From a virus, in IMG/VR virus record IMGVR_UViG_3300020187_000058, positions 1-47,632 of that record: a DNA stretch of 47,632 nt. The stretch is one strand, 5' to 3'. Below are positions 2,694 through 33,522 of the stretch, piece by piece. Both the position numbers and the translations under genes were made by a program. Each line of letters begins with the position of its first letter. Within the stretch, counting starts at the first letter, position 1. The notes under the pieces are model-generated. The model saw only the letters and a program-made list of their open reading frames with translations, was not told where the DNA came from and searched no databases.

Positions 2694-3416
2694 TTATTTG
2701 TACCAACCAGCCATTGAAAACCTTTGAACATTTTTATTTACTACATGGGACACATAATGTGGGTATCCTGTATCTGTTGAAGAATCAAATAATGTAAGAG
2801 AATTAAATTGTGGTACATAAGTATTAATAACCTTTGTTTTATCTTGTGATAAAGTATGTAATAACCCACCCCAATCTGGTTTCCAATTGGGGCATAAATT
2901 ATACACAAATCCTATTTTACCATTGGGCCCATCATGATGAATTGCTAAAAAATCATTATATTCATATAAACTACTAAATAAACTAGAAGAATTTATAACA
3001 CCATAATTTGTAATAGTGTTTATAAAATCTATACCCTTTTTAGAATTTAAAAATGATTTTAAATTACACTCCATACATGGACAATCCTTACCATGGTTAT
3101 CTATAGTCCTTTTAAATGAATATGAAAAATTACCTAACTGAAAATGTTCATTAGCTAATGAACTTTTATAAGATACTAAAGAATTTACTTCAGGGTTATG
3201 TTTAATATTAGATAATCTTAAATTATCGGTTTGTTCATTAATTCCCGGTCTTTTAGGCATAGTAGAATAATACCACCAATCTCGGGGCATTTCTTTGCTA
3301 TAAAAATTATATATCTTATCAGCATAATCTTTATCTAAAAAGTTTTCAATGCGAATTACTTTATTCTTTTTAAATGCCTTACTATATTTATTTAGATCTA
3401 ACTTAGGATTAATCAT
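2694..3416 (-). CDS. 2-oxoglutarate/Fe(II)-dependent dioxygenase (prolyl-4-hydroxylase-like)
   Basis: The 240-residue protein carries the double-stranded beta-helix signature of 2OG-Fe(II) oxygenases. The HxD iron motif is His160/Asp162 (AIHHDG), followed by DWGGLL near 181-186, a FNSLTLFD strand near 204-211, the distal iron ligand His224 (YVSHVV) and the likely 2OG-binding Arg232. A small CPCMEC cysteine cluster at 112-117 may bind a metal. It overlaps the upstream glycosyltransferase stop by 1 nt (TAATG), so the two are co-translated. Members of this family hydroxylate proline, lysine, nucleobases or sugars. Its placement beside glycosyltransferases and collagen-like fibres makes a protein substrate attractive, but that is inference. 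Confidence 0.83.
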   Translation of the reverse strand: MINPKLDLNKYSKAFKKNKVIRIENFLDKDYADKIYNFYSKEMPRDWWYYSTMPKRPGINEQTDNLRLSNIKHNPEVNSLVSYKSSLANEHFQLGNFSYSFKRTIDNHGKDCPCMECNLKSFLNSKKGIDFINTITNYGVINSSSLFSSLYEYNDFLAIHHDGPNGKIGFVYNLCPNWKPDWGGLLHTLSQDKTKVINTYVPQFNSLTLFDSSTDTGYPHYVSHVVNKNVQRFSMAGWYK

Positions 3417-4687: not shown

Positions 4688-5611
4688 TTATAACTTTCCT
4701 TCTTTCTTAAGTTGTTTTTTATATTTTTCGTCTATAAACCAATCTTTATAAAAATCTCTCTTTTTAGTAATATAATCAAAATATTCATCTACCTTATCTT
4801 TCCAATTATTATCTATATAAGGATTAATTACCCCTGATTTGGGATTTGAGAATACTTTATTAATCCATTCTTTACCTTCTGCCTGGTTTGCAAATGCTTG
4901 AGTATTAATAGAATAAAAGGAGGCACGGTTTATATCATTATAAACATCAATAGCTTCTACTGGTATTCCTAATGCTACACAATTAATAACACTTTCACTC
5001 CAGTGGGTTGAATATACTTTTTTAGCTTTTACTACAAAATGGTATAAATCAGAATCACGAGGTAATATTGTTTCTTCCCCAAATAAATCTTTCAATTCAC
5101 CTATAACAGCATGAGTTGTAATAGGATGAGGTTTAAAATAAATGTTATCCCCATATTTTTTCTTTAGGAATTTTAGTTTATTTAAACAGGTATTACCCTT
5201 AAGTTTATTTGATCCTGGGAGTATTGCTAGATATTCAACATCTTTAAAATGAGATACATCTTGATCTCTATTTTGGTATTTATTAGCTGTTTTTTCTTTA
5301 ACTCTGTTTTCCATATGGGTAGCAAAGTCTATAATAGGATATTCATCTCTATCATAATATGCTTCTATAATAGATTCAAACCTAAGTTTAAAATTTAAGG
5401 GTTGAAGATAAAAATTACCAGCATGTTCTGTATACCCCATGGTTTTAAAGTAGGGCATTTCTTCAGCTAAAACATCATAACTGTATTCTATATCTAATTC
5501 TTTACATTTTCTTATGATATATCCTTCTACATCTTCTAAGTCACGTAAATTTTGATTTTTTTTAAGAGAACCAAGTCTTTCTTTTAAGACTTTTTTATTA
5601 AACATTTCCAT
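4688..5611 (-). CDS. Capsule-synthesis-type glycosyltransferase (KpsC/KpsS or CDP-glycerol transferase-like)
   Basis: The 307-residue protein has the C-terminal half of a GT-B enzyme. IYFKPHP at 157-163 is followed by THWSESVINCVALGIPVEA at about 202-220, the Ser/Glu and Gly-x-Pro pattern of the capsule polysaccharide synthesis and CDP-glycerol glycerophosphotransferase families. The LAILPGSNKLKG strand near 128-139 begins the second Rossmann domain. The N-terminal domain is short for KpsC, so the match is to a single-module enzyme. KpsC and KpsS transfer Kdo. This phage also encodes a Kdo-8-phosphate synthase, which makes a Kdo link tempting but unproven. It lies directly downstream of the giant fibre genes. 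Confidence 0.6.
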   Translation of the reverse strand: MEMFNKKVLKERLGSLKKNQNLRDLEDVEGYIIRKCKELDIEYSYDVLAEEMPYFKTMGYTEHAGNFYLQPLNFKLRFESIIEAYYDRDEYPIIDFATHMENRVKEKTANKYQNRDQDVSHFKDVEYLAILPGSNKLKGNTCLNKLKFLKKKYGDNIYFKPHPITTHAVIGELKDLFGEETILPRDSDLYHFVVKAKKVYSTHWSESVINCVALGIPVEAIDVYNDINRASFYSINTQAFANQAEGKEWINKVFSNPKSGVINPYIDNNWKDKVDEYFDYITKKRDFYKDWFIDEKYKKQLKKEGKL

Positions 5612-5673: not shown

Positions 5674-8271
5674 TTACCCATCTTTGTTATTTTTACGACT
5701 ATTATATTTATCTCTTTCACCAAAACCCCATTTACTTTTAGTAGTATTTCTAGAGTATGATTTACCATTAGTTTTTGATTTTGCAGTATTCTTTTGGTAA
5801 TTTTTTCTTACTGTAGAATACCATCCTAAGGTATATTCGGTGTTTACATCTACCTCTGTAGATCTTCCAGTTCCTGTGAATGTGGAAGTATTCCATGTGG
5901 TAATAGTACTTCTAGTAGTATTCCAATAACTAATATAAGAAGTTGAAGTATCAGTATTTGTTGTCCACGTTGTAGTAGTACTTGAACTTGTAGACCAAGT
6001 TGTGGTTGTTGACCTAGTTGTAGACCAAGTTGTTGTCCAAGTTGTTGTAGTGAGTTTACTTGTGCTCCAAGTTGTTGTAGTACTTCTACTTGTTCCTTGA
6101 CTAGTATTAAATGTTGTAGTCGTTGAGGAATTGGTAATAAAAGTTGTAGTAGTACTTGAACTTGTATTCCAAGTAGTTGTCCACGTAGTAGTAGTAGATG
6201 ATGAAGTATTCCAACTAGTTGTAGTACTTCTAGATGTAGACCATGTTGTGGTTGTATTTTTACTAGTTGAGCTACTTGTTGTCCACGTTGTGGTTGTACT
6301 TCTAGATGTAGACCATGTTGTTGTTGTACTTTTACTGGTAGACCAAGTTGTTGTAAATGTTGTTATTGTACTTTTACTGGTAGACCAAGTAGTAGTTGTA
6401 CTTCTACTTGTAGCTTGATCTGTATTAAATGTTGTAGTAGTACTTTGGTTAGTATTAAACGTTGTAGTAGTACTTGAACTTGTACTCCAGCTTGTAATCC
6501 AACTTGTTGTTGTAGAACTACTAGTACTCCATGTTGTTGTAGTACTTCTGCTCGTCTTTTGACTTGTATTAAATGTTGTAGTAGTACTTGAATTTGTATT
6601 AAATGTTGTAGTAGTACTTCTAGTTGTATTCCAAGTAGTTGTTGTTGATCTAGATGTATCTTGACCTGTAGACCAAGTTGTTGAGGTTACTGAGGATGTA
6701 GCCCAAGTTGTTGTTGTTGACTTAGTTGTATTCCAGCTAGTAGTATAAACTGTTGTTGTGGAACTACTAGTTGCAAAGGTTGTTGTAGTACTTCTATATT
6801 CAGTTCTGGTTGTATTCCAAGCTGTTGCTGTGGTTGTTGTTGTATTAAAGGTTGTAGTTGTACTTTTACTTGTAGACCAAGTAGTAGTTGTTGATCTAGA
6901 TGTATCTTGACCTGTGTTCCAAGTTGTTGTAGTACTTCTAGTTGTATTCCAAGTTGTGGTTGTTTCCTTACTTGTATTCCAGCTGGTAGTATAAACTGTT
7001 GTTGTTGAACTACTAGTTGCAAATGTAGTAGTTGTAGATCTAGTTGTTCCTTGACTAGTATTAAATGTTGTAGTTGTTTTTAGGGTAGTATTAAACGTTG
7101 TAGTAGTACTTCTAGTTGTATTCCAAGAGGTTGTTGTTGATCTAGATGTATCTTGACCTGTAGACCAAGTTGTGGTTGTTGACCTAGTTGTAGCCCAAGT
7201 TGTTGTAGTACTTCTAGTTGTATTCCAATACGATCGGTATGTAGTAGTTGTTGAACTACTAGTTGCAAACGTTGTTGTTGTGAAAGTGGATGTACTTTGA
7301 CTAGTATTAAATGTTGTAGTAGTACTTGAACTAGTATTAAACGTTGTTAATGTTGTTTTAGTAGTATTCCAAGTTGTTGTAGTATTTTTAGTTGTATTTT
7401 GACCTGTGTTCCAAGTTGTTGTTGTCGCCTTACTTGTACTCCAAGTAGTGGTTGTTGACTTAGTTGTATTCCAATAGGTAGTATATAATGTAGTTGTTGA
7501 ACTACTAGTTGCAAACGTTGTAGTAGTACTTCTGCTCGTCTTTTGACTTGTATTAAATGTTGTAGTAGTACTTTTAGTTGTATTCCAAGTAGTTGTTGTT
7601 GACCTAGTTGTATTCCAAGTAGTCGTAGTACTTCTAGATGTATCTTGACCCGTAGCCCAAGTTGTTGATGTTGATTTAGTTGTAGCCCAAGTTGTGGTTG
7701 TTGACCTAGTTGTATTCCAATAGGTAGTATATGATGTAGTTGTTGAACTATTAGTTGCAAACGTTGTTGTAGTATTTCTATATTCAGTTCTAGATGTACC
7801 AAAAGTGGTTAATGTAGTTTTACTTGTGTTCCAACTTGTACTTGTGTTTTTACTTGTGTTCCAATAACTTCTATAACTAGTTAATGTAGTTTTACTTGTG
7901 TTAAATGTTGTAGTTGTATTCCAACTTGTAGATTTAGTAGTAGTAGTAGATTGGGAAGTATTCCAATAAGTAGCATAAGCTGTTAATGTTGTTTTAGTAG
8001 TATTCCAAGAAACTGTTGTTTTCTTTATTGTATTTCTACTTTCGAGTGTAGTTCTAGATGTGTTCCAACTTGTATTATAAGTTGTAGTTGTACTTTGACT
8101 AGTATTAAAGGTTGTAGTAGTACTTTTAGATGTATTAAAAGAGGTTGATGTCGATTTACTTGTACCTCTAGATGTAGATCTTTTAGGATAAGTATACTTA
8201 GAAGTACCTCGTGTAAAAGAAGTAGAACGGGTAGTATTCCAATAAGTCGTATAGTTAGTTCCTTTAGCCAT
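5674..8271 (-). CDS. Giant Thr-rich decapeptide-repeat protein with basic tail (865 aa)
   Basis: Almost the whole protein (residues about 5-790) consists of a decapeptide of the form S-T-T-T-T-[WF]-[NSA]-T-[ST]-[RKS], broken at intervals by longer variants containing YTTYWNT or GQDTSR. Each unit places one aromatic residue at a fixed position, and many contain an N-T-S/T triplet. The C-terminal ~60 residues are non-repetitive and strongly basic (many Lys, Arg and Asn). There is no signal peptide or enzymatic motif. It begins 3 nt after the stop of the paralogous Hint-containing gene, so the pair is translationally coupled. Placement at the end of the fibre locus suggests a long tail fibre or virion decoration. 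Structure and function are unknown. Confidence 0.75.
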   Translation of the reverse strand: MAKGTNYTTYWNTTRSTSFTRGTSKYTYPKRSTSRGTSKSTSTSFNTSKSTTTTFNTSQSTTTTYNTSWNTSRTTLESRNTIKKTTVSWNTTKTTLTAYATYWNTSQSTTTTKSTSWNTTTTFNTSKTTLTSYRSYWNTSKNTSTSWNTSKTTLTTFGTSRTEYRNTTTTFATNSSTTTSYTTYWNTTRSTTTTWATTKSTSTTWATGQDTSRSTTTTWNTTRSTTTTWNTTKSTTTTFNTSQKTSRSTTTTFATSSSTTTLYTTYWNTTKSTTTTWSTSKATTTTWNTGQNTTKNTTTTWNTTKTTLTTFNTSSSTTTTFNTSQSTSTFTTTTFATSSSTTTTYRSYWNTTRSTTTTWATTRSTTTTWSTGQDTSRSTTTSWNTTRSTTTTFNTTLKTTTTFNTSQGTTRSTTTTFATSSSTTTVYTTSWNTSKETTTTWNTTRSTTTTWNTGQDTSRSTTTTWSTSKSTTTTFNTTTTTATAWNTTRTEYRSTTTTFATSSSTTTVYTTSWNTTKSTTTTWATSSVTSTTWSTGQDTSRSTTTTWNTTRSTTTTFNTNSSTTTTFNTSQKTSRSTTTTWSTSSSTTTSWITSWSTSSSTTTTFNTNQSTTTTFNTDQATSRSTTTTWSTSKSTITTFTTTWSTSKSTTTTWSTSRSTTTTWTTSSSTSKNTTTTWSTSRSTTTSWNTSSSTTTTWTTTWNTSSSTTTTFITNSSTTTTFNTSQGTSRSTTTTWSTSKLTTTTWTTTWSTTRSTTTTWSTSSSTTTTWTTNTDTSTSYISYWNTTRSTITTWNTSTFTGTGRSTEVDVNTEYTLGWYSTVRKNYQKNTAKSKTNGKSYSRNTTKSKWGFGERDKYNSRKNNKDG
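5880..8250 (-). repeat. Imperfect 30-nt tandem repeat array A (Thr-rich coding)
   Basis: The array encodes the decapeptide described for the 865-residue protein. On the plus strand it appears as GTTGTAGTAGTACTT-like blocks. Units vary at synonymous positions, so the array is not a fresh slippage product. The long frames it creates on the other strand and in other frames are artefacts. Confidence 0.85.
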
Positions 8272-8274
8272 TAG

Positions 8275-11226
8275 TTATAATTCTTTATTATAAGTTAATA
8301 TACCATTTGCAAAATATGCATCACTTTCTTCTGTATCTAATTGATATACCGTATACGTATTTTCAAAATCTTCTTCTATGCTGACGATAGGTACTTCATA
8401 TCCATCTTTGTGATAAAAACTATCCCCTATTTCAACATCACTACCTCTTTTAACATACCATGATCCACTTCTATTAATTATATGAGAGTGATCAGTTGTT
8501 GATCTTAAAAGCCCATTATTAAAGTTTAAAATTCCAATAGCATAAAATGAAAATTGGTGTTCTACACTTTCAACACTAAGTGAACCTGATGTCATATTAA
8601 AACTTGATGTTAAATTTAAAGCATCAGATGAATCAAAAGGAGTATCTACTGTTAATACATTACTACCTGAGATTAGTGTTTCTATAGGTTGTTCTACAGT
8701 AGTAGATACACTAATTGGAGTTCCTTCTACAAAACAATTGAAACTATTTAAAGATAATCCACCTGTTGATCTAGAGGTTTGCCATGCTGTAATATTAGTT
8801 ACACTTGTTACCCATGATGTAAATACAGGGTAACTAGTTTGCCATGATGTATTATATGAGGTAGTTGTATTTTTACTAGTACTAAAAGTTGTTGTTGTCG
8901 CCTTACTTGTACTCCAAGTTGTCGTTGTAGTTTTTGTTGTTGATTTTGAAGTTGCGAATGTTGTTGTTGTATTCCAACTTGTTGATTTAGTTGTGTTTCT
9001 TAATGAAGAAGTTGAGAATGTTGTTGTTGTATTATGACTTGTTAATCTACTAGTTTGCCATGTAGTAGTTGTATTTTTAACTGTATTTCTACTTTCTGTA
9101 GTAGTTTTACTAGTACTCCATGTTGTTGTTGTATTTTTAGATGTGTTTACATAAGTTGAGAATGTTGTTGTAGTATTTTTACTAGTACTAAAAGTAGTTG
9201 TAGTATTTTTAGATGTATTCCATGTTGTAAACCAAGATGTAGCAGTTGCTTTAGTTGTATTCCAACTTGTTGTAGTACTTTTACTTGTTCCTTTACTAGT
9301 TTGGAATGTAGTAGTTGTTGACTTAGTTGTATTAAAAGTTGTTGTAGTATTTCTACTCGTATTCCAATAACTAATATAATAGGTAGTTGTTGAACTACTA
9401 GTTGCAAACGTTGTAGTAGTACTTTTAGTTGTATTCCACGTTGTGGTTGTACTTCTAGATGTAGACCATGTTGTTGTCCAACCCGTTGTTGTTAACTTAG
9501 AAGTATTCCAAGTTGTTGTAGTACTTCTACTTGTTCCTTTACTAGTTTGGAATGTAGTAGTTGTTGACCTAGTTGTATTAAAAGTTGTTGTTGTTGACCT
9601 AGTTGTATTCCAGTAACTAACATAGCTAGTGGTTGTTGAACTACTAGTTGCAAACGTTGTTGTTGTGTTTTTACTAGTTGCCCAAGTTGTTGTTGTTGCC
9701 CTAGATGTACTCCAAGTTGTTGTCCAAGTAGTTAAAGTGAACTTTGATGTATTCCAAGTAGTTGTTGTTGATCTAATTGTTGTTCTATTAGTTTCAAATG
9801 TTGTAGTTGTTGAACTAGATGTATTCCAAGTCGTTGTTGTGGCTTTGCTTGTATTCCAGTAACTAGTGTAATTGGTAGTTGTTGAACTACTAGTTACCCA
9901 AGTTGTTGTTGTTGCCCTAGATGTACTCCAAGTTGTTGTTGTTAATTTACTAGTTGCCCAAGTTGTTGTCCAAGATGTTGTTGTTGACTTAGTTGTATTC
10001 CAAGTCGTTGTTGTTGCTTTACTTGTAATAGAAGAGGTTGAAAAAGTTGTTGAAGTTTTTTTAGTTGTACTCCAAGTTGTTGTTGTTGCCCTGCTTGTAT
10101 TCCAGTAACTAATATAACTAGTGGTTGTTGAACTACTAGTATTAAAAGTTGTTGTTGTTGACTTAGTTGTATTATAAGTTGTAGTAGTATTTCTACTTGT
10201 ACCCCAAGTTGTTACCCAAGATGTAGCAGTTGACTTAGTTGTATTCCAAGTCGTTGTTGTTGCTTTACTTGTAATAGAAGAGGTTGAAAAAGTTGTTGTT
10301 GTTGACTTAGTTGTATTCCAAGTTGTTGTTGTGTTTTTACTAGTATTCCAGTAACTAATATAACTAGTGGTTGTTGAACTACTAGTTGCAAAAGTTGTTG
10401 TTGTGTTTCTACTAGTTGCCCAAGTTGTTGTTGTTGTCTTACTAGTTGCCCAAGTTGTTGTCCAACCCGTTGTTGTCGATTGGCTTGTATTCCACGATGT
10501 TGTAGTGGTGGTTGATGTTAATCGATCCGTACTCCAAGTTGTTGTTGTTGCTTTACTTGTACTCCAAGTTGTTGTTGTAGACTTTGATGTTTCCCAGGTA
10601 GTAATCCACCCTGTTGTTGTTGAACTACTAGTATTCCATGTTGTTGTAGTACTTCTACTTGTAGAACTATTAGTATTAAATGTTGTAGTAGTACTTTTAG
10701 TTGTATTAAAAGTTGTTGTTGTTGAACTACTGGTATTCCAACTTGTAGTAAATGTTGTAGATGTTAAACTACTAGTATTCCACGTTGTAGTTGTTGCCTG
10801 ACTAGTAATCCATGTAGTGGTAGTTGAGGATGATGTTACTGAGGATGTAGCCCAAGTTGTTGTTGTTGCTCTAGTTGTATTCCAGCTGGTTGTTGTTGCC
10901 TTACTAGTACTCCAAGTAGTTGTATAATTAGTAGTTGTTGAACTACTAGTATTAAAAGTTGTAGTTGTAGATTTAGATGTTTTAACAGACGTAGAAAATG
11001 TTGTTGTCGTTGCACTAGATGTATTCCAACTAGTGGTTGTTGATTGTGTTGTGTTCCAAGAAGAGGTAGTTGTAGTTGAAGTACCAGTTGAAGTATTCCA
11101 CGTTGTAGTGGTACTTTTAGTGGTATTCCAAGTTGTAGTAGTGTTAAAGTCTGTTGTTACACTATGTACTGTACTAACACTTGTATTCCAAGTTGGTGTT
11201 TTTATTCCTAATCCTAGTCCTTTCAT
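8275..11226 (-). CDS. Giant Thr-rich decapeptide-repeat fibre with C-terminal Hint domain (983 aa)
   Basis: After a short leader (MKGLGLGIKTPTWNTS) residues about 15-815 are the same Thr-rich decapeptide repeat as in the downstream paralogue, with several W-x-TTW and SYISYWNTS variants. Residues 831-980 form a Hint (Hedgehog/intein) domain. It starts at Cys831 (CFVEGTPI), has a block-B-like STTDHSHII near residues 909-917 and ends with YFANGILTYN before a three-residue tail KEL. Hint domains make a thioester at the first Cys and can cleave or ligate. Here a domain at the very C-terminus suggests processing of the fibre end rather than intein splicing. The gene sits between the collagen-like fibre and its paralogue, all in one direction. 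Confidence 0.82.
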   Translation of the reverse strand: MKGLGLGIKTPTWNTSVSTVHSVTTDFNTTTTWNTTKSTTTTWNTSTGTSTTTTSSWNTTQSTTTSWNTSSATTTTFSTSVKTSKSTTTTFNTSSSTTTNYTTTWSTSKATTTSWNTTRATTTTWATSSVTSSSTTTTWITSQATTTTWNTSSLTSTTFTTSWNTSSSTTTTFNTTKSTTTTFNTNSSTSRSTTTTWNTSSSTTTGWITTWETSKSTTTTWSTSKATTTTWSTDRLTSTTTTTSWNTSQSTTTGWTTTWATSKTTTTTWATSRNTTTTFATSSSTTTSYISYWNTSKNTTTTWNTTKSTTTTFSTSSITSKATTTTWNTTKSTATSWVTTWGTSRNTTTTYNTTKSTTTTFNTSSSTTTSYISYWNTSRATTTTWSTTKKTSTTFSTSSITSKATTTTWNTTKSTTTSWTTTWATSKLTTTTWSTSRATTTTWVTSSSTTTNYTSYWNTSKATTTTWNTSSSTTTTFETNRTTIRSTTTTWNTSKFTLTTWTTTWSTSRATTTTWATSKNTTTTFATSSSTTTSYVSYWNTTRSTTTTFNTTRSTTTTFQTSKGTSRSTTTTWNTSKLTTTGWTTTWSTSRSTTTTWNTTKSTTTTFATSSSTTTYYISYWNTSRNTTTTFNTTKSTTTTFQTSKGTSKSTTTSWNTTKATATSWFTTWNTSKNTTTTFSTSKNTTTTFSTYVNTSKNTTTTWSTSKTTTESRNTVKNTTTTWQTSRLTSHNTTTTFSTSSLRNTTKSTSWNTTTTFATSKSTTKTTTTTWSTSKATTTTFSTSKNTTTSYNTSWQTSYPVFTSWVTSVTNITAWQTSRSTGGLSLNSFNCFVEGTPISVSTTVEQPIETLISGSNVLTVDTPFDSSDALNLTSSFNMTSGSLSVESVEHQFSFYAIGILNFNNGLLRSTTDHSHIINRSGSWYVKRGSDVEIGDSFYHKDGYEVPIVSIEEDFENTYTVYQLDTEESDAYFANGILTYNKEL
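8278..8736 (-). other. Hint domain coding segment
   Basis: This part encodes residues 831-983 of the repeat fibre. Visible landmarks are the nucleophile Cys831, the TxDH motif with the His expected to assist the N-S acyl shift, and the terminal Asn980 of block G. The residue before Asn is Tyr instead of the usual His, which in inteins weakens Asn cyclisation. No homing endonuclease insertion is present, because the domain is only about 150 residues long. Confidence 0.8.
8790..11215 (-). repeat. Imperfect 30-nt tandem repeat array B (Thr-rich coding)
   Basis: This second array encodes the same decapeptide consensus as the array at 5880-8250. The two genes are tandem paralogues that share the repeat but differ at both ends. 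Recurrent longer super-units containing SYISYWNTS recur several times in this array, suggesting expansion in blocks. Confidence 0.83.
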
Positions 11227-11590: not shown

Positions 11591-14500
11591 TTATTTTTTT
11601 AATTTATTAATTTCTTTTCTTAATTCTTCAATTTGTTCTTGTTGTTCTTGAAGTGCTTTTACTAATACTGATGTTATTTTTGAATATTGTACACCAGATA
11701 TTTCACCATCTTCTTCATATGCTACTAATTTAGGAAGTACTTTTTCTACATCTTCAGCAATAAATCCATAATCTTCTCTACCATCTTCTTTCCATGTAAA
11801 TTGTACTGGTTTTAAAGATTTAATATTTTCAAGTTGGGTTGATAAAGGAATAATACATTCTTTATATTTTTTAGCTGATGTTTCAACTAATGAGACTGTT
11901 CGAGTTGTACCTAATACACAAGCATTATTCATGAATGTATAATTTGTAGTAGTTGAGGTAATATTACACCCTATAATAAATGAATGGTTATGGGTTAATG
12001 AGTTACTATAACCTCCTAATATTCCATTACAAGAACCACCTGTAATGCAATTTTGGTATCCATTACCTATAATGCTATATGAACGGTAACCACCTCCTAT
12101 AACATTTGACCTTCCTCCTAGGATACTATTACCAGAAGAATATGAAGCACATATCTTATTACCTTGCCCTCCTAATATTGAATTTTCAGTTGTAGTACCA
12201 CCACATATTTGGTTTCCACATCCACCACCTATAAAGGGATGACATTGATAAGCACTAGCATTACATATTAAATTGTTTTTCCCACCTACTATAGCTCCTT
12301 TAGCAACAGCAAGAATACAGTTATTCTGTCCAGATCCAATAAATGAAAAATTTCCTGATCCTGAGTTACATTGTCCACCAGCTATGACTGCATAATCAGC
12401 TGCAAGGCAGTTTCTATCACCTCCTAATAATGAAGAATTAGTATGGGATACCATTGAAAAATCATTTTGAGAGGAACCAATCGAAACATTAGGACTTATA
12501 CAAACCCCACTTTCTTGACCACTTGACATCATTATACAAGAGCTACCACCAAATCCTCTAATATCTACGATAGAATCATTTTCTCCTGAGTTTATGCAAA
12601 CTCCAGCATCTACATCTAAGGTTGTACCATCAAATACTAATGAACCTTCACCGTTAATTGATGTACCACCTGTGGCTGTTAAAACTCTATTATTGAAATT
12701 ATTTGTAATAGAAGGTACTCCTGAGGGTCCTGCTGGTCCTGTTGCACCAGCTGCTCCTGTTGGTCCGGTAGCTCCCGTGGTTGCTGTTTGAGGTATACTC
12801 CAAAAATAGTTTGTACCATCATAATAAAATCCTAACACATCTACACCATTTGACGTGGTAGTAGTTGTATATGTTGCGCCTCCAATTATAAGAGACCCTG
12901 CTGGGAGTGTTAATGTGTGGGATGTTCCTGATCCTTGTTTTACTAATATCGTTCCTGTATCTCCTACTGCTACATTGGATATAGCTAAGGTTCTATTTCC
13001 TCCTAAAGTAACTTTAGAGTTTGAACCATTGGCAAGATTCCAGGATACTGTAGCAGCATCAGTTAAGGTTAATTGTGTTATATTTATTTTACTATCTACA
13101 CTTACAACACCACCAACATCTAAAGTATCTCCAATAATAGCATCTCCCTCTGTATCTAAGTTATTTACAAAAGTATAATTTGTTTTATCTGATGTTATAT
13201 TAGAACCTATAACGTGTGAGTTTGTATGGGATACTGTGTTAAATGCTCCTGCTAATATACTGGAAGAGTGGGAACTAATTGTATTATTTTTACCACCCCC
13301 TATAGTAGAATGTGCTCCACTTATTACATGAGCCGATCCTCCTAAAATGGCTGAAGTTGCTCCTGTAATACAGCTACTAACACCACCTGCAATAACTACA
13401 TTACCAGTATTTTCTCCTTTTATTGTGTTATTACCACCACCACCAATAGTATTTCTATCAGTGTTTGTATCAATAGTATTATCACGTCCAAAAATAGTAT
13501 TAGCATAATTGTGATCTCCAATAGTTGTTGAAGATGTTATTTGGTTATCATATCCTCCACCTATAAAGTTCCATCCTCTTGTTCCATCAATGTTGTTACC
13601 ACATCCCCCTACTATTATATTTCTACCTACATTACCAAATCCTGTTACTGTATTAATTGTACAGTTATTTTGACCAGCTCCAATGAAATCCATACAACCA
13701 TCTGTTTGGTTGTTAAGACCTCCTCCTATAACACCATAATGTTTAAATACATCATTACCAGAACCCCCACCAATAACCCCATAACAAGAATTTGCTATAC
13801 AGTTATTAATACCCGCTCCTATAAATGAACGACAACCAAATATTCCTTGAATCTGATTATTTCGACCCCCTACTATAGCAGAAGTACTTGAACCAATACA
13901 GTTTTCATGACCTGCACCAATAAAATTATATTGGGTTCCCAGGGGTATGTTATTTTCTAGACCACTTCCTATAAAGCCATAATTACCTGAACCTGTATTT
14001 CTAAGACCTCCCCCTATGGAAGTACAACCTCCTGTACTACAATGTGAAGATCCTATAACTGCTTTATTAGTTATAGTTAAAACTCCAGAAGAAAGTGTTG
14101 ATGTTTCTACTGTACCTGTACCATCACCATCATATGTAATTAAACCATTTGTGGTTGTTCCTGTTAAAGGTAAAATACCATCAGCACCCGTTGGACCTTG
14201 TGGTCCTGTTGGTCCTGCTACAGTTGAATCTGCACCAGTTGGTCCCGTAGGTCCTGCTACAGTTGAATCTGCCCCTGTTGGTCCCTGTGGACCTGTAGGT
14301 CCTGCTACTGTCGAATCAGCTCCTGTTGGTCCTGTTGGACCTGCCACAGTTGAATCTGCACCCGTTGGTCCTTGAGGTCCTGTTGGACCTGCCACAGTTG
14401 AATCTGCCCCTGTTGGTCCCTGTGGACCCGTAGGTCCTGCTACTGTCGAGTCAGCACCCGTTGGTCCTTGAGGTCCTGTTGGACCCGCCACTGTTGAATC

Positions 14501-14899
14501 TGCACCAGTTGGTCCTTGTGGTCCTGTTGGTCCTGCTACAGTTGAATCTGCACCAGTTGGTCCTTGAGGTCCTGTTGGACCCGCCACTGTTGAATCTGCA
14601 CCAGTTGGTCCCGTAGGTCCTGCTACAGTTGAATCTGCCCCTGTTGGACCTTGAGGTCCTGTCGGTCCTGCTACTGTTGAATCTGCACCAGTTGGTCCTG
14701 TTGGACCTGCTACTGTCGAATCAGCTCCTGTTGGTCCTGTTGGTCCTGTTAAGGATAAATTAGATCTTTTTTTAATGTTACCAGTGGCATCTGCTACTAG
14801 TATATCAGTTTCTGTAGTTCCGTCAGGTGTTCCTGTTAGTTGTAGAGTTTTTAGTTCAGCATTAGACCCGCTGATTATGAGTTTTTTCCAATTTGGCAT
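11591..14899 (-). CDS. Collagen-like, YadA-head-like tail fibre with S74 intramolecular chaperone (1102 aa)
   Basis: Domains in order: an N-terminal WKKLIISGS anchor (residues 1-51); a collagen-like region of 13 units of [13 protein letters not shown] or [16 protein letters not shown] (52-240); a first block of IGGGxxN-type repeats resembling trimeric autotransporter heads (about 280-570); a beta domain with a second short [10 protein letters not shown] stretch (about 600-735); a second IGGG block (about 790-985); and a C-terminal S74 chaperone (about 1005-1102). The S74 part shows SAKKYKE, with the Ser and Lys expected for autocleavage, then [12 protein letters not shown] and a terminal coiled coil. 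S74 domains trimerise fibres and then cut themselves off. The head repeats are unusually rich in cysteine. This is most likely a host-recognition fibre. Confidence 0.88.
14180..14746 (-). repeat. Collagen-like 39/48-nt repeat array
   Basis: Thirteen units encode [13 protein letters not shown] or [16 protein letters not shown]. Proline is always in the X position of the Gly-X-Y triplet and Thr or Gln in Y. Units differ at synonymous codon positions. Such an array is prone to length change by recombination. Confidence 0.9.
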
Positions 14900-24381: not shown

Positions 24382-27300
24382 TTAAGATTGTATTATTCCT
24401 TTACTAATTAAATCATTTACTATTATAGAAGCACTAGTTTCTAACTCAGGTATTGGGTAACTTGGAAATAATATACCATCAGATGAAAAAGGTTTTGATA
24501 TATTTTGTTGTACTTTAGTTACTGTCCTTTGTATATCAAGTGGATTCAGTGTAATCTCTACCATTTCATCTGGGTCGATTTGGATGCTATCTATTCCTAA
24601 AATATCTCCATCTACATATCCACTTCCTGCCTCTGTTACTTGTATAAAAGATATAGGATAAAAGTTATTTACAGCAGAACCACTAACTATAATAGTAGCT
24701 TTTGCTCCCGTTCCTGTTCCTCCTGTTAATGGTACACTAATAAATGAACCTGAAATGTTATTAACTGAAGGGTCGATGTCATTGGTGTCAGATTGTGGTT
24801 GTTGAGTTATAGATTTTAATAAACTATCTTCTGCTTTTACTAATTTTCCATTACGAGTTTCACTTATTTGTTCACCTAAATCTAAGGTTTCATTAGTATA
24901 TGGGTATGGCAAATCTATAAATACACTACCAGCATTAGGTAAATATCTTCTAATTAAAAAGAAATCCTTATTTATAGAAGCAGGTACGGGTTTGTTTAGT
25001 TCTAGTTTTAGGTAACCTACATCATCTGGGTGTAAGTTAGATTGAGGTGGTTCTACAGAATTAATAATAAATGTAAAGTTTTCATTATTACCAAATCTAA
25101 TTTCATCTCCTTCTTCTATAACCAAAGTAGAATATGGTTTACCAATTTTAGTATTTTCTGGTTCTTGGCCTGTTGCAAAACCTTCATAAGGACCAGGAGT
25201 ATAAGGTAATTCTGCTTGGGCAAATGAATTCCCATATCCTTCATTAAATAATGAAGAAGACATATAAATAAAATTATGTGTAGTATCTGAGGTAGGTATT
25301 GATGCATTTTTCATACTATTACCAAACATAAAATATGGAGCCTTTGCTACATTATCTTCCGAGAGTAGATGGGTTTTAGAACCTAACATACTTATTTTGG
25401 TAGCACCTTTAGGACCCGTAAATGATGATGGCATAATTGTATTTTTACCATTATTACCAGCTAATATAGATGAATCTATTTCCCATTCTACTTTACTATC
25501 CTCAGCAAATATATTTTCACCAGAGTTTGCTTTAATTATCCATTCTAACCCTTCAATATTTCCACCAGCTTCAATACCCTTTCCATCTAACCCTTTAGAT
25601 GATAAAATATCTTTAACAACCTTTTCATTAATTTTAGCATGGATTTTATTTTCTCTATCTAGTTTTAACCCGCTGCTAAAATTGTAAATACTTGTAGTAC
25701 GTGATTTTCTCCAAATATTTCCTCTTTGGGTTTGTACCCTTGTTGGGGTAGCTTGTTCAAATACAATTTTATCAACTACAGACCCTGCATTGTAAGGAAC
25801 ACCACCTTTCCATACTCTTAAAGATATATCTTCAGCTACAAAAGGTATATAACTAACATCAGAACCATCTGTATATTTTAAACCTAATTTTAATGTAAAT
25901 TCTATATACTCCCTTGATTTAGATTTTTTCCAAAAATTACCTTTTTTATGATAATCACCAGAATATATATAAGTTGTTGGTAACGAAGTTACTAAACTAA
26001 TATATTGCATTTGAGATAATTCACCATTAATGGCATGAGCCTCTTGAGCAAAATCAATTTCTCCACTACTTATATTATAAGCTTGTTCATAATTAGTAGC
26101 ATCAGGTACTACTGGTTTATAATTTGATGATGGATTTAATGTCCCCTTTACATTTCTACCAGGAGTTAAAGAAGATGTTCCTTCAACTGAGAAACTAAAA
26201 TCAGTAAATCCTGTTCCTGGGTTGTCATATATGCTAATACGACCTGATCCTGTAAGTGGAATACTTTCTGCATATTGTCTACTACCTATTTGAGAATACA
26301 TAATAGGTACAGGATATTTACCTACAAATTTTACAGTATGCTGATCATTAATTTCTTCTAATTCTTGATTTTCAGCTGATAAACTTACAGCTAATTTGCT
26401 ATCTCCTTCTTTAGGGAAGGTTTTATCAATAATATCTAAGGCAACTCCTTGTAATGAAGGAGGTAATGCATTTCCTTGTGGGTCTATTAAATATGATAAA
26501 TTTAATCTAGTTGAATCATTTAGAATTGGGTATGAATCCTTCATGGAGCTAAAATACCCAAAATAGGCATTTCTTAATTCAAGTACTGGAAGTTGTCCAT
26601 ATGTTCCAAAATCGTTTGGAGTCCAACTATTAATATATTCACTTTGTGCCTTAGTACCATCATATCTTAAAGCCGTCCAAGATTCTTGGAAATAGTTAGA
26701 ATCAGGAACAGTTGCTTTAATAGCACTTCCTGATATGATTTGGTTAAAGTTAACAGGTATTATTGAACCACTTACATTACTATAATCAACATCCATTAGA
26801 TATGAACTACGTCTTTGATTATTATAATTGTTTATTAAAGGTTGACAATCAAGAGCTAAAGCAAAAGGTAAAACTCCATTTCCGTAATAACTAGGAACTA
26901 TTGTATCCGTTACTATTGGCACTGAATATTTACCATACCCTGGGGATAATACTACTGTATTACCACCATAATCATCCTCACCATATTCGGCACTAATAGC
27001 AGGTGTTTCTCCATAAAAAGAGAAATCATTAGTAATAGAACCAAATTTAGATTCTGATGGGAATAAACTCATTGTATATTCAGTAATATCTAAAAATGAT
27101 CCAAGATTTTTATCTGCTCTTACTACAAGTCTAAATGAATCATTATGTGAAAAATTTTTAATAAATGAACCACTTAATTGTATATTATTTGATACCCAAT
27201 CACTATTAGCAGGTGCTGATAAAGGGTCATATGATTCTCCTCTTGCAGATGCACTTGTAGGGACTATAAAACTTTGCTCGAAAATAATAGAACCATAAGA

Positions 27301-30300
27301 TGAAGTATCATCTTTATTTCCTTTAAATATTTGTATAGATCCTGTAAAGTCATAACCACTTTGGTCTGCTCTTATTTCATTATTAATAGTTAATTTAGGG
27401 TAAACTTCATCTAATTTAGGAGGCATTATTGTAAATTGAGGAGTTACAAGTGGATTTGAACTTGCTATACTTCCAGATGAAATTACAGTTTCTATAAAAT
27501 ACATACTACCCGTTGTATTAAAAGTAGGATATACTGTTTCAATACCTAAAGAATTAGATACAATATCACCAGCACCTCCAGTTTTTAATGGGGATGTACC
27601 TCCTTGTCTTATACCGAAATAACCATGACTACCTGATGTTAAGGTGGAGGTTATTAAATTTTCAGTATGGGGATCTGTGTATTGGAAAGTTACACTATCA
27701 CCTAAAGATTCTGTTATTGAAAATCTTTCTATACCATAAGAACTAGTCCTTAAAATATTGTTGATAGGACTATCAGGGAATAATATAGGGGCACCAGAAA
27801 AGAATTGATTTCTTACTTCATTTGATGCTGTAATTAATTGTTTTGGGTGATGGTGTGAGCCTGTTATATATAAATACTCTCTAACAGTACCATTAAAACT
27901 TGTATTTATGGATTCAGCAAAAAGGATTTGTTGGGAGAAAAAATCACCTTGAGATGCAATACCTAAAGTATCAGTATTTAATATGGATGCCCCAGTATAT
28001 ACTCCACCACCAACACCCCCAATTCCTTGATTTCCACTTCCTACATCATTTAAATCTATTGAATAGAATTGTAAGTCTATTTTAAAATTAGTTACAAAAT
28101 ATTTAAATACCTCAGTTGAAGGTATGGAATATTTTAATTTAATTCTTAATTTATCTCCTGGGTCGGGGTTTAATTGGGCTGAATTTAATGTGAGTTGAAT
28201 ATTATTTCTTGTACCATTTTGGGAACCTCCTCCAACGGCACTATAGGATAAAGTTCTAGTGGAATTTAATAATTTTATATCTTGGGCAATTGGAGCATTA
28301 TTAATAACATCTTGTCTGTAAATAGCAGATTCTACAGTATCGGGTACGTCACTTGCATCAGGAATAGCATTTTCAAAATATCCCTTTGTGACTGTTGTAT
28401 TATAGCTTATTTTTAATAATACAGGTTCACTAATATCTCTATCTAGATCATTCATATAGTCCTCTAACTCATTTAGGTCTATTTCGTAATAGAATTCTTC
28501 ATCTGTGTCTACAGCTGAAGTAAAATTAGTGAAAGTTGATGGTATATTAGCAATAATGTTGCTATTAGTTGATGGGGCATATTGTCCATTAGGTCCTGCA
28601 ATCGATCTTACTAATTTTGGTCTTGATGATGAATTTAGAGGATTTGGTCTACCAAATGTTAAACCTCCTGAAAGAATACTTCCACCAAAAACATTATAAG
28701 CATATTCATCAAAATTAAAGTTTAATGAACCAGTACCACCTTGCAATATTGTAGCATGACCTGAGGTATCTAATATTGTACTAGGTATAACTCTAATTTC
28801 ATCCTGGTCAGAAAAGGAATTTCCAAATTGTGTAGCATTACCAGCAGGGAATTGTTTAATTATCCATAAATTACCAGAATTTGCCCATATTGGAGTACTA
28901 CCATTTAGTAAAGTAGTTGCTCCTGTTATTGTAATACGATTAACATCTGTAGCAGGGTTATATATATTCCAACTACTAGCTTGGTTAAATTTTTGCATAT
29001 CAGCACTATTAAACCAAGTACCTCCTTCATCATCATATAATGATATAAGCATTTGGGTAGCTTGACTAATATTAGCATGATTAAATGCTACTTCTCTAAA
29101 CTGATTATTACCCCAATTAGTAGTATCTGTTGAAAATTTATATTTTATTCTATTGCTATTTAAAATATCACCTTCTATATTTTGATCAACAATATTTTTA
29201 AAAAATGTTGAATCTAGATTTTGTGAGCTATTATTAAATGGAGGTAAAGCAATACTCATAGTATTACCAAAATTACTTGAATCAAAGGTGTAGTTTCTTC
29301 TTTCACTATCTGCTCCGTAAAAACTACCAGTATGTAATATACCTTGAGTATATATTGGATCTATAGTTTCATTTCCTCCAGAAGCACTATATGCTATAGA
29401 AGCAGATAATACCCAAGGAATATTGGATGTTCTTGGTATGATATAACTACCCCAATCATATGCTTCAGGTATAATCCCATTATTAAAGGGACCATAAACT
29501 GTATAATCTGGAGATCCTGTGTTGAAAAACCCTAAAATATCTCCTTTTTTTCCATTATAATACCTAATAGGTTGTATTTGAAGCTCAGTTTGACCATGAA
29601 AATAATTTTGAGATAAGGAATCAAAACCTCCAGGTTGAGTAGAAGGTGTATAATGAGATCCAGATACATCTCCGGATACCAATAAACTCCAATTTTCTGA
29701 TCCACCATTTGAAGAAGATGCGAATAAATAATCTCCTCTATCTTGTTCTATAGTTAAAGTAGCAGATTTATCATTAATTACAGTACCTTCTGAGAAGAAC
29801 ATTTTAAATCCTTCAGGGAAAGCAAATTGTACAAACTCGGTTCCAATTAATGAATCTCTAATATCATTACCTCCTTTATCTAAGGCAGCTAATTTAATTT
29901 TTTCTACATTAACTACACCTGTTGTTTGATTTGTTCTAGTAAAAAACCAGGCATATCCTCTTTGTGGTTCATTTCTTCTATCACTCCAACCTTCTAAAGT
30001 AGTTGTACCAAATATAAAATCAGTAGAAGAATCAGAAAAGAATATTGGGTAATATTGTAGAGGAATATCTGGATTATCATGATATTTAATACAATCTGGA
30101 CTTAAGGATTGAGTGGTGGTTGTAATATTTGAACCACTAAATTCTCCATCATAAAATTCTTCTTGATCAGAAATATATATTATTCTTTTTCCTAAAGGCC
30201 CATTTATTGATTCAGAATATGCTTGATTTACACTACGGTCATTAGTTAAACCATTAAATACTTCAAAAGAACCTCCAGTTCCTCCTTTATATCTATATAG

Positions 30301-33300
30301 AGAAGAACCATTATTATATTCATATTGTCCTGTATCCCCAGATCCAGTATTATATTTTCTAGGTTGTGATTTAATTGAACCACTATGAGTTACATTTTCA
30401 TATGAAACTTGAGGTGGTTTAACTCTATTTCTTTCTAATAGGTGTTGTTTTACTACAACCCCAGATGTTAAACTTGTTCTTGCAGGGGTAAAATCCTTAA
30501 TCATTTTAAATAATGAATTATCAAAGAATTTCATTAATCTTACAAAGTCTATAAGATTATAACTGCTAATATATTTTTCAAAATATGAGTCTCTCAACGT
30601 ATCTAAATCGGGGTAATTACGATTTGATTGGGATATATGTCTTGGGTCTCCAATATATTCACCTAAATTAAAATACCCCATTTGTGCATTAATATCATCA
30701 TTAATTTGGTCTTGAGGGGAGAAAGCTACTTCTAAATAATTAATACTAGGAGTATAACTTGAAGATTCAATTGAATCCGATTGAACTGATATCATTGGGG
30801 ATAAAACATTTCCTTTAGGTAAAACTGTGGGGTTTGCTGTTATTTTATCCGTAATTCTATTTTTTATACCTGCTGAAACTTGGTCTTGGTATATATATTC
30901 TTTATTAGGAACAAAGTTAGGGTTACTAACATAATAATTACTATCAGTAGTAAAAGAGGAGGTTATGAAGTTACTAGATCCAGTAATTTTAGGATGAATA
31001 GATTTATAACTTCCAGTATTTAATTTAGAACCTAAATCTGCTCTAAAAATTAACTCTTCAGGGGTACTATTTATACTATTACCTTCAAATGAATAGGGAT
31101 TCATTGTATAATCTTTAAATACATTTGAAGAAATTGGAGTGTTGTAATATCGTATTTCTTGGTATAAACCTAAAAATCTAGTATAACTTTTACCTCCTAC
31201 TACTAAGTTATTACTATAATTTGGGAAACTAATTTTATCCGCACTATTATAATAAGAGGGTTGGAATGAACCTTCTATACTAGAAGAACCATAAAACCCT
31301 AAACTGTTATTAATTTGATTAGCAGCAAATAATGATGCTGTTGGGCTTGTTACGTTAATAGTAGTTTGGATTGACCACCATTCATTATTAAAAAATGGGA
31401 AATATAAACTAGCGCTAATCTCAGGTTTATTCATGTCAGGTACAAAAGACAGGGTTCCATATTCTCTATATAAATCTGCATTTGATCCTGAATATGAACC
31501 ACTACTTAAGCCGGAACCTGTATATTCTAGTATTAGAGCACTCCTATTAGGGTCTAGATAATATAAAGACTGGGATAATTGGGTTGGAATACCATCAGAT
31601 TTAAACCTAAATTGAATAGTTTGTGGTCTATTTGATCCAAAGTTTTCATTTACATCAAAAGAAGAGGTAATATAATTTCCACCTTTTGTATCAAAAGCAT
31701 AATTAAATACTTTTTGTTTTAAATCCCAATCATTAGAATTAATTTTATCCTTACTTCCAAACTCATTTATTCTTAAAATAGTATCGGGGATACCATATGT
31801 AGTAATTAATGCTCTAATACCCGCTATTGTACCCTTAGTTTTAAGTAAGTAAGGTAAATTATGGTAAATTCGTTTATAAAGGCGACTATCTATATCCTTT
31901 AATGGGATTATGTCACTCGATGATGATATTAAAGTATCTACATATTCTTGCCCAGAAGATACAGGGTATTCACTTGAAATTTCTGGGAATGGGAACAAAC
32001 CACCTGAAGGAGTAAGTCCTAAAAAGGCAGTATAGAGGTCGGCATTTGAGAAATTATTAGAATATAATTTAATACCAAAATCTTTAACAGCAGTACTAAT
32101 CAAGTCCTTAGATATTCCATACTCTAAACGATTATCAGCATTAAACTTATTTGTAATGTCTTTAGTATAGAGCCAAGTGTTATCATATTCTTGAGCAACC
32201 ATATCTACAAACAAATCATATTGTTTATTATTAGGGTCATCTCTTAGATATTCAGGAATTGAATTATAAAGATAATCAGGATTTGATTCATCATAATCCG
32301 AGGCAGTAACTGCTAATCCCCCATAATAAACACTTTCTGGATTTGTGCTACCAGCCCATTTTAATACCTCAATACTAGAAGTTGATTGTAATTGATAAGG
32401 AGGGTTTAAATTGGATTTAGGGTAAGAAAAATCGGAACCACTATTATAATATAAAAAATAATCATAACCATCAAATTTGTTGATTATATCATTTATTTTA
32501 CTTTCGTATAAAGCTTTACTAGAGCTGTATTCTGAGGTTCTGGAGGAATTATTTTGGATTGATCCTAAGGATGAAGAAATTACATTAGTATAAGATTCTA
32601 TTAATCCTGCTTTAAAAATAAAATTTTCTAAACGGGTTTTTGCTGAACTAAAGTGGATGAAATCCTCAAAGTTTTCATAGTTTATATTAATGTTAGTTCC
32701 TTGTTCATCTAACAAATTTAACAGTTGACTTTGGGAACTAGTTATTGGAGAATTCATTAAAGAATCAAGTGAAAAAACTTGAGAAGGTACTCCTAACCCA
32801 TTCTTTACATTTATATTTAAATTAGGACCTTGAATAAATTCAAAATCTTGATCTACTATAATATCAAATGGAAATTTAACTTCGTATAATAATGAATCTG
32901 ATATTTCTTCTACAACCCATAATTCTGTTTTTAATTCAAAATCCTCAGGTAAAGGTTCATATAATTTAATTAATATAGTAGGATCATCTAAAAATGTAGT
33001 ATCTAATTTAATGTTATTAGCTATAACACTTTTATTATCTCCAAAGTTTAATAGAAAATCTACAAAATATCCTTCTTTTTCTCTATGTTTAATAAATTCA
33101 TTACTTGTAGATATTATATCTTCATTACTAATAATATTACTATCTAAACGAATTTCTGTTCTATCAGATGAAATTTCTTTAATATAGTATTTATTTAAAT
33201 AATCCGATTTTAATCTTTTACGATAAAAATTATATAATATATAATAAGAATCACTATTTATACTGTGGTTTCTTAAATCTGTTTCAGGGAATAAATTAAT

Positions 33301-33522
33301 ATGACCTTCTATTACTGAGTAGGTAGTAAGGGGTAAAGTACCATTTTGAGGGAGAATTTTGTTTTGAGATTCATCAAATATATAATATTCTATATAATCA
33401 GAATCTTTATTAAAAACAGTATCTAAATTAGATATGGATATTAACTCATTATCTATATCTAAGTATTTTTGAAACTCAAAAGTTTTAGCATTAAGTTCTG
33501 TAATTTGTACTTTATCTTTCAT
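24382..33522 (-). CDS. Giant baseplate/tail structural protein with LamG-like insert (3046 aa)
   Basis: This single frame fills a fifth of the window. The N-terminal ~550 residues are a mixed beta/helical segment. At about residues 560-580, NLPYLLKTKGTIAGIRALIT and the following YGIPDTILRINEFG resemble a motif of phage tail protein I and related baseplate proteins. Residues about 600-790 look like a concanavalin/LamG sandwich (NEWWSIQTTINV ... FLGLYQEIRYYNTPIS). The remainder is a long series of SGS- and TGS-rich beta domains without catalytic motifs. Its position just downstream of gp6- and gp25-like genes fits a peripheral baseplate-wedge component, the position of T4 gp7. At three times the size of T4 gp7, the identity remains tentative. 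Confidence 0.78.
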   Translation of the reverse strand: MKDKVQITELNAKTFEFQKYLDIDNELISISNLDTVFNKDSDYIEYYIFDESQNKILPQNGTLPLTTYSVIEGHINLFPETDLRNHSINSDSYYILYNFYRKRLKSDYLNKYYIKEISSDRTEIRLDSNIISNEDIISTSNEFIKHREKEGYFVDFLLNFGDNKSVIANNIKLDTTFLDDPTILIKLYEPLPEDFELKTELWVVEEISDSLLYEVKFPFDIIVDQDFEFIQGPNLNINVKNGLGVPSQVFSLDSLMNSPITSSQSQLLNLLDEQGTNININYENFEDFIHFSSAKTRLENFIFKAGLIESYTNVISSSLGSIQNNSSRTSEYSSSKALYESKINDIINKFDGYDYFLYYNSGSDFSYPKSNLNPPYQLQSTSSIEVLKWAGSTNPESVYYGGLAVTASDYDESNPDYLYNSIPEYLRDDPNNKQYDLFVDMVAQEYDNTWLYTKDITNKFNADNRLEYGISKDLISTAVKDFGIKLYSNNFSNADLYTAFLGLTPSGGLFPFPEISSEYPVSSGQEYVDTLISSSSDIIPLKDIDSRLYKRIYHNLPYLLKTKGTIAGIRALITTYGIPDTILRINEFGSKDKINSNDWDLKQKVFNYAFDTKGGNYITSSFDVNENFGSNRPQTIQFRFKSDGIPTQLSQSLYYLDPNRSALILEYTGSGLSSGSYSGSNADLYREYGTLSFVPDMNKPEISASLYFPFFNNEWWSIQTTINVTSPTASLFAANQINNSLGFYGSSSIEGSFQPSYYNSADKISFPNYSNNLVVGGKSYTRFLGLYQEIRYYNTPISSNVFKDYTMNPYSFEGNSINSTPEELIFRADLGSKLNTGSYKSIHPKITGSSNFITSSFTTDSNYYVSNPNFVPNKEYIYQDQVSAGIKNRITDKITANPTVLPKGNVLSPMISVQSDSIESSSYTPSINYLEVAFSPQDQINDDINAQMGYFNLGEYIGDPRHISQSNRNYPDLDTLRDSYFEKYISSYNLIDFVRLMKFFDNSLFKMIKDFTPARTSLTSGVVVKQHLLERNRVKPPQVSYENVTHSGSIKSQPRKYNTGSGDTGQYEYNNGSSLYRYKGGTGGSFEVFNGLTNDRSVNQAYSESINGPLGKRIIYISDQEEFYDGEFSGSNITTTTQSLSPDCIKYHDNPDIPLQYYPIFFSDSSTDFIFGTTTLEGWSDRRNEPQRGYAWFFTRTNQTTGVVNVEKIKLAALDKGGNDIRDSLIGTEFVQFAFPEGFKMFFSEGTVINDKSATLTIEQDRGDYLFASSSNGGSENWSLLVSGDVSGSHYTPSTQPGGFDSLSQNYFHGQTELQIQPIRYYNGKKGDILGFFNTGSPDYTVYGPFNNGIIPEAYDWGSYIIPRTSNIPWVLSASIAYSASGGNETIDPIYTQGILHTGSFYGADSERRNYTFDSSNFGNTMSIALPPFNNSSQNLDSTFFKNIVDQNIEGDILNSNRIKYKFSTDTTNWGNNQFREVAFNHANISQATQMLISLYDDEGGTWFNSADMQKFNQASSWNIYNPATDVNRITITGATTLLNGSTPIWANSGNLWIIKQFPAGNATQFGNSFSDQDEIRVIPSTILDTSGHATILQGGTGSLNFNFDEYAYNVFGGSILSGGLTFGRPNPLNSSSRPKLVRSIAGPNGQYAPSTNSNIIANIPSTFTNFTSAVDTDEEFYYEIDLNELEDYMNDLDRDISEPVLLKISYNTTVTKGYFENAIPDASDVPDTVESAIYRQDVINNAPIAQDIKLLNSTRTLSYSAVGGGSQNGTRNNIQLTLNSAQLNPDPGDKLRIKLKYSIPSTEVFKYFVTNFKIDLQFYSIDLNDVGSGNQGIGGVGGGVYTGASILNTDTLGIASQGDFFSQQILFAESINTSFNGTVREYLYITGSHHHPKQLITASNEVRNQFFSGAPILFPDSPINNILRTSSYGIERFSITESLGDSVTFQYTDPHTENLITSTLTSGSHGYFGIRQGGTSPLKTGGAGDIVSNSLGIETVYPTFNTTGSMYFIETVISSGSIASSNPLVTPQFTIMPPKLDEVYPKLTINNEIRADQSGYDFTGSIQIFKGNKDDTSSYGSIIFEQSFIVPTSASARGESYDPLSAPANSDWVSNNIQLSGSFIKNFSHNDSFRLVVRADKNLGSFLDITEYTMSLFPSESKFGSITNDFSFYGETPAISAEYGEDDYGGNTVVLSPGYGKYSVPIVTDTIVPSYYGNGVLPFALALDCQPLINNYNNQRRSSYLMDVDYSNVSGSIIPVNFNQIISGSAIKATVPDSNYFQESWTALRYDGTKAQSEYINSWTPNDFGTYGQLPVLELRNAYFGYFSSMKDSYPILNDSTRLNLSYLIDPQGNALPPSLQGVALDIIDKTFPKEGDSKLAVSLSAENQELEEINDQHTVKFVGKYPVPIMYSQIGSRQYAESIPLTGSGRISIYDNPGTGFTDFSFSVEGTSSLTPGRNVKGTLNPSSNYKPVVPDATNYEQAYNISSGEIDFAQEAHAINGELSQMQYISLVTSLPTTYIYSGDYHKKGNFWKKSKSREYIEFTLKLGLKYTDGSDVSYIPFVAEDISLRVWKGGVPYNAGSVVDKIVFEQATPTRVQTQRGNIWRKSRTTSIYNFSSGLKLDRENKIHAKINEKVVKDILSSKGLDGKGIEAGGNIEGLEWIIKANSGENIFAEDSKVEWEIDSSILAGNNGKNTIMPSSFTGPKGATKISMLGSKTHLLSEDNVAKAPYFMFGNSMKNASIPTSDTTHNFIYMSSSLFNEGYGNSFAQAELPYTPGPYEGFATGQEPENTKIGKPYSTLVIEEGDEIRFGNNENFTFIINSVEPPQSNLHPDDVGYLKLELNKPVPASINKDFFLIRRYLPNAGSVFIDLPYPYTNETLDLGEQISETRNGKLVKAEDSLLKSITQQPQSDTNDIDPSVNNISGSFISVPLTGGTGTGAKATIIVSGSAVNNFYPISFIQVTEAGSGYVDGDILGIDSIQIDPDEMVEITLNPLDIQRTVTKVQQNISKPFSSDGILFPSYPIPELETSASIIVNDLISKGIIQS

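Follow-up and report, generated by a model that had tools for sequence, protein, structure and literature searches.

Genes in the tail region

The window, i.e., the complete stretch of 47,632 nucleotides analyzed here, represents a viral tail region and contains matches to baseplate-wedge proteins. The gene of fibre 1 (8275..11226, minus strand) is an ORF that stays open over 983 codons. By analysis of composition and spacing, residues 1-820 of the 983 aa product were identified as a repeat rich in Thr (46%) and Ser (19%), in which aromatic residues lie mainly 10 or 14 positions apart. A Pfam match of the full-length protein to rve_2 falls in this Thr repeat and was rejected as a composition artefact. 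The fibre 2 gene (5674..8271, minus strand) begins 3 nt past the stop codon of fibre 1 and encodes 865 aa with the same Thr-rich repeat and no Hint domain. Both fibres (5674-11226, minus strand) have a mucin-like composition, with 46-51 N-x-S/T sequons and 44-46% Thr.

The third cassette gene, MEMFN (4688..5611, minus strand; 307 aa, phrog_26179), encodes a protein with 55-63% identity across otherwise diverse cassettes, in which KPHPITTH is invariant. A search of this protein against the PDB gave no usable match. By eye, KPHPITTH resembles a glycosyltransferase-type motif, and MEMFN could glycosylate the Thr-rich fibres. A 2OG-Fe(II) oxygenase gene (2694-3416, minus strand; 6e-16) lies near the fibre genes, and its product might hydroxylate fibre or collagen-like residues. 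Upstream of fibre 1, a collagen-like tail protein of 1102 aa (11591..14899, minus strand) carries its own C-terminal S74 chaperone domain. An ORF of 3046 aa between the tail-fibre and baseplate genes (24382-33522, minus strand) gave no Pfam match.

Identification of the Hint domain

Residues 831-983 of fibre 1 form a Hint domain, which is BIL-like and extends from Cys831 to Leu983 (8278..8736, minus strand). The original prediction had placed a Hint domain at the end of the Thr-rich fibre with exactly these coordinates, an assignment now backed by a family profile, an AF2 model and Foldseek. The motifs it had named, i.e., Cys831 within CFVEGTPI, TTDH, and FANGILTYN three residues before the stop, were all found in the translation. 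Cys831 (8734..8736, minus strand), the sole Cys of the domain, corresponds to Cys1 in the alignment of active-type relatives and is the predicted nucleophile of an N-S acyl shift. TTDH (residues 910-913; 8488..8499, minus strand) is the block-B TxxH motif according to the alignments. Tyr979-Asn980 (8287..8292, minus strand) aligns with the His-Asn end of inteins; FANGILTYN ends at Asn980 and is followed by a C-extein stub of three residues, Lys-Glu-Leu (8278..8286, minus strand), and the stop codon of the translated ORF.

With the window domain alone, both halves of the Hint domain were matched in Pfam, yet below the cut-off: Intein_splicing at the C-terminal end (0.0018) and Hint_2 at the N-terminal end (0.024). 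Hom_end_hint also scored below its cut-off (0.0074). The curated cut-offs of the Hint/intein models were missed with 18.5 bits vs. 35.8 and 15.5 vs. 28.4. A phmmer search of the single domain against the PDB found no match, and searches for close relatives found none in IMG/VR, INPHARED or GTDB. Alignment-based scans of IMG/VR did yield relatives; the same type of scan of GTDB genomes revealed no relatives. A family profile of 23 rows, searched against the PDB, gave significant matches to the solved BIL domains 2lwy (8.7e-10) and 6tmm/6y75 (~1e-9), and weaker ones to inteins.

Structure prediction with AF2 from 23 sequences resulted in a horseshoe all-beta Hint fold (pLDDT 91.3, pTM 0.87); an earlier model from 6 sequences (pLDDT 45) was not used. 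Foldseek returned 60 PDB matches at E<=0.001; the 50 of these that were listed consist of structures of BIL domains, inteins and hedgehog. The best matches were BIL2 (8.6e-10) and BIL4 (1.5e-8), followed by the DnaB, RecA and gp41-1 inteins and then hedgehog 1at0 (3.5e-5). Among viral structure models, the best named matches were phage proteins described as 'Hint domain containing'.

Active-type relatives and catalytic residues

Scans for the fibre repeat yielded 180 loci with such ORFs, and several of the fibres there end in the same Hint domain with a canonical THN. Together with the window domain, the active-type set comprises 18 distinct domains that share <90% identity, and their pairwise identity has a median of 38%. 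Cys1, Gly9, the Thr and His of TxxH and the final Asn are invariant in the active-type alignment A2 of 9 sequences, the block-B His also in alignment A3, and one further active-type relative (L244) has Ser1 in place of Cys1. Cys/Ser1, the block-B His and Asn are kept in all active-type relatives. Because these residues persist at 38% identity, while a clade fused to a methyltransferase lost Cys1 and HN (see below), the alignments suggest that they are retained for catalysis rather than for folding.

None of the 18 domains has Cys, Ser or Thr at position +1, which is Lys in the window, and the domain is therefore considered BIL-like and not a splicing intein. Asn is followed by 2-10 residues in 13 of the 18 domains (full range 2-44). 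A strong trend in these sequences is Lys at +2, present in 15/18 domains compared to a background of 4.2% (binomial 1.6e-18, with relatedness ignored). In the window, Lys occupies +1 and Glu +2; two other active-type domains likewise have Glu at +2. In L004, L019, L022 and L208, Asn of the fibre 1 Hint domain precedes a Cys-rich tail of 25-44 aa, and some of these tails carry CxRG-like patterns reminiscent of the CxRGC tail found on Hint-less fibres.

The replacement of the penultimate His by Tyr, already recognized in the original prediction, is evident from both translation and alignment and is confined to the window; all other active-type relatives keep His-Asn. Since inteins without this His can function via compensating changes (PMC7664689), Tyr does not settle that the domain is inactive. 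In the tree, the branch of the window copy is long (0.94 changes per column), and support for its precise position within the active types is weak. Measured against the described classes, the family shows the His-Asn end of A-type BIL domains, of which the window copy retains Asn alone, together with the lack of Cys, Ser or Thr at +1. A class 1 intein would have ligated exteins and a +1 nucleophile, where the window has Lys and a C-extein of 3 residues, and a class 3 intein would have WCT, a block-F Cys and no Cys1, which is present here.

Fibre cassette and exchangeable fibre 1 tail

The gene order fibre 1, fibre 2, MEMFN is conserved at loci with a complete fibre pair, and at these loci the type of the fibre 1 tail is strictly linked to what comes after it. 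Counted once per distinct tail, a fused Hint domain is followed directly by fibre 2 without an intervening gene (10/10), and a CxRGC tail by a gene in which a homologue of guanidinoacetate methyltransferase is joined to a dead Hint domain (11/11). A Gly-rich tail with a single RGG precedes the methyltransferase alone (3/3), and an S74 chaperone tail, identified by motif, precedes a gap of 557-577 bp (9/9). As closely related members occur within a class, these cases are not independent events. L136 is an additional member of the CxRGC class; its tail is hidden by a shadow ORF, and its own ORF ends in GGGCARGCQ. The closest relative of fibre 2, L156 (contig G001), lies so near the end of its contig that its fibre 1 tail was not readable.

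The methyltransferase-Hint gene lies between two Thr-rich fibres, e.g., in L219 (805-1854), and occurs also in L012, L018, L052, L061, L062, L084, L108, L204, L232 and others. Its methyltransferase part matches guanidinoacetate N-methyltransferase (3e-15). In the fused Hint domains Cys1 is absent from 22/22 aligned proteins and the HN end from 21/21 proteins reaching it, L059 being cut by the contig end; they form one clade (100/99). The fibre upstream of this gene ends in a Gly run and CxRGC, which suggests that the arginine of this tail is methylated by the neighbouring methyltransferase. The methyltransferase without Hint domain was found in L226-L228, L235, L236, L238 and L175, where the Gly-rich tail of the fibre holds the single RGG.

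Judged from these sequences, the tip of the fibre appears to be a chemically modified module that can be exchanged. If phages swap the fibre end along with the adjacent gene (self-processing Hint, chaperone or predicted arginine-methyltransferase substrate), tip chemistry would be an exchangeable phage trait. The modules that replace the Hint domain in sister phages, i.e., S74 and the methyltransferase-linked tails, point to fibre maturation, and the attachment to a host surface that had been envisaged originally received no specific support.

Proposed function of the Hint domain

Fold, catalytic residues, a fixed C-terminal place and a conserved cassette with exchanged end were established by computation. 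On this basis, the BIL-like Hint domain at the fibre 1 end is considered, at slightly better than even chance, a self-removing C-terminal maturation module. After translation, Cys831 would attack the Asn830-Cys831 bond to form a thioester, from which water or an amine would free the fibre from the Hint domain of ~17 kDa, so that the released fibre would end near residue 830. Cyclisation of Asn980, probably slowed by Tyr, would remove KEL only. With Lys at +1, splicing in the strict sense is unlikely. The originally proposed fold, Cys1, TxxH, Asn and position all stood, and a dominance of N-terminal chemistry over Asn cyclisation is plausible from the sequences, given the absence of Cys, Ser and Thr from +1 throughout the family and the short stretch of 2-10 residues after Asn in most of the domains. 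The models for the proposed release are BIL and hedgehog domains as well as the S74 chaperone of endosialidase, a domain that cleaves itself off, as proposed for Hint. That S74 occupies the Hint slot of fibre 1 in nine other loci was counted in favour of release. Against release stand the Tyr of the window, its long branch and weakly supported placement, and the catalytically dead cousins, which leave room for a role of the fold in structure or binding; moreover, Asn would hardly need keeping if N-terminal release alone mattered.

The main rival is a transfer, in which the fibre C-terminus would pass from the thioester to the amine of a lysine, be it the conserved Lys after Asn or one of a neighbouring subunit or partner, resulting in an isopeptide-capped or cross-linked tip. 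The +2 Lys trend agrees with this, as does the closest solved fold, Tetrahymena BIL2, for which formation of a Lys isopeptide has been reported (PMC8616854), but Lys could simply help folding or the local environment, and Glu takes the +2 position in the window and two more domains, so that transfer is considered unlikely. An extended form, in which active Hint domains of an exchangeable tip cassette pass the C-terminal thioester to the conserved nearby Lys and sister dead Hint domains dock the CxRGC tail to the fused guanidino methyltransferase for a methylated-Arg tip, is distinctly doubtful.

The second rival is a purely structural role, in which the Hint fold would remain on the fibre and serve, like its degenerate cousins, as a non-catalytic tip or docking domain. 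In its favour are the loss of catalysis in the sister clade, where 20 relatives without Cys1 and HN keep the domain beside the same fibre pair, and the Tyr that stands for His in the window. However, no active-type relative, the window copy included, has lost Cys/Ser1, the block-B His or Asn, and such a role appears improbable. A mobile intein inserted in the fibre gene and splicing two exteins would share the fold and motifs, but the +1 residue, the short stretch of merely 2-44 residues after Asn, the missing endonuclease domain and the invariably C-terminal position make it highly improbable, and a splicing intein was rejected on account of the +1 residue, tail length and absent endonuclease. 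The family also supplies new Hint domains for testing release or ligation without a +1 nucleophile.

Comparison with known systems

Hint domains, BIL domains and, in databases, Hint-ended phage tail proteins are already known; the place of a BIL-like domain on a Thr-rich fibre and its modular exchange are new. In the open-licence literature, no description of Hint-ended phage Thr-rich fibres or of a swap with a methyltransferase-pseudoHint gene was found, a weak negative. What is known of post-translational processing at phage fibre tips comes mainly from S74-type chaperones. These are C-terminal modules like the Hint domain and take the same fibre 1 slot in sister phages, whereas their fold and chemistry are unrelated and S74 additionally aids fibre trimerisation.

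A-type BIL domains (2lwy of C. thermocellum; 6tmm/6y75, Tetrahymena BIL2) share with the window domain the fold, a length of ~150 aa, Cys1, TxxH, the terminal Asn, the lack of a +1 nucleophile and an occurrence in variable proteins. In contrast to them, the domains described here form the very C-terminal end of phage fibres that belong to a conserved cassette, the window has Tyr for the penultimate His, and its relatives conserve the +2 Lys. The hedgehog Hint domain (1at0) resembles the window domain in fold and C-terminal position and in an N-S acyl shift followed by release of the upstream part, which would apply to the window domain by inference; unlike it, the window domain lacks a sterol-recognition region and has the terminal Asn. 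In phage NCTB (LT598654, 'large intein domain protein'), Hint domains with Cys1 and HN also end large tail-region proteins, and their AF2 folds match that of the window domain closely, but the carriers have no Thr repeats and a Gly-rich linker, and the domains form a separate tree branch with ~23% identity.

Carriers outside the Thr-rich fibres

Active Hint domains also end proteins without Thr repeats (L239-L245, L248, L252), and in L244 this applies to two adjacent genes. The domain preceding Hint in these carriers was found in Hint-less proteins as well, five of which (L192, L084, L045, L074, L169) stop within -2 to +3 residues of the Cys1 position, so that cleavage at Cys1 would recreate a normal protein end. 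Other Hint-less proteins with the same preceding domain continue for 11-22 residues as a Gly-rich tail. L003, a human-gut record, was rejected as a fibre, being a YD-repeat protein with an internal Hint domain. Two Thr-rich proteins of 1517-1659 aa (L100:9306-14285, minus strand; L158:3037-7590, plus strand) end in two tandem Hint domains, for which double processing is possible.
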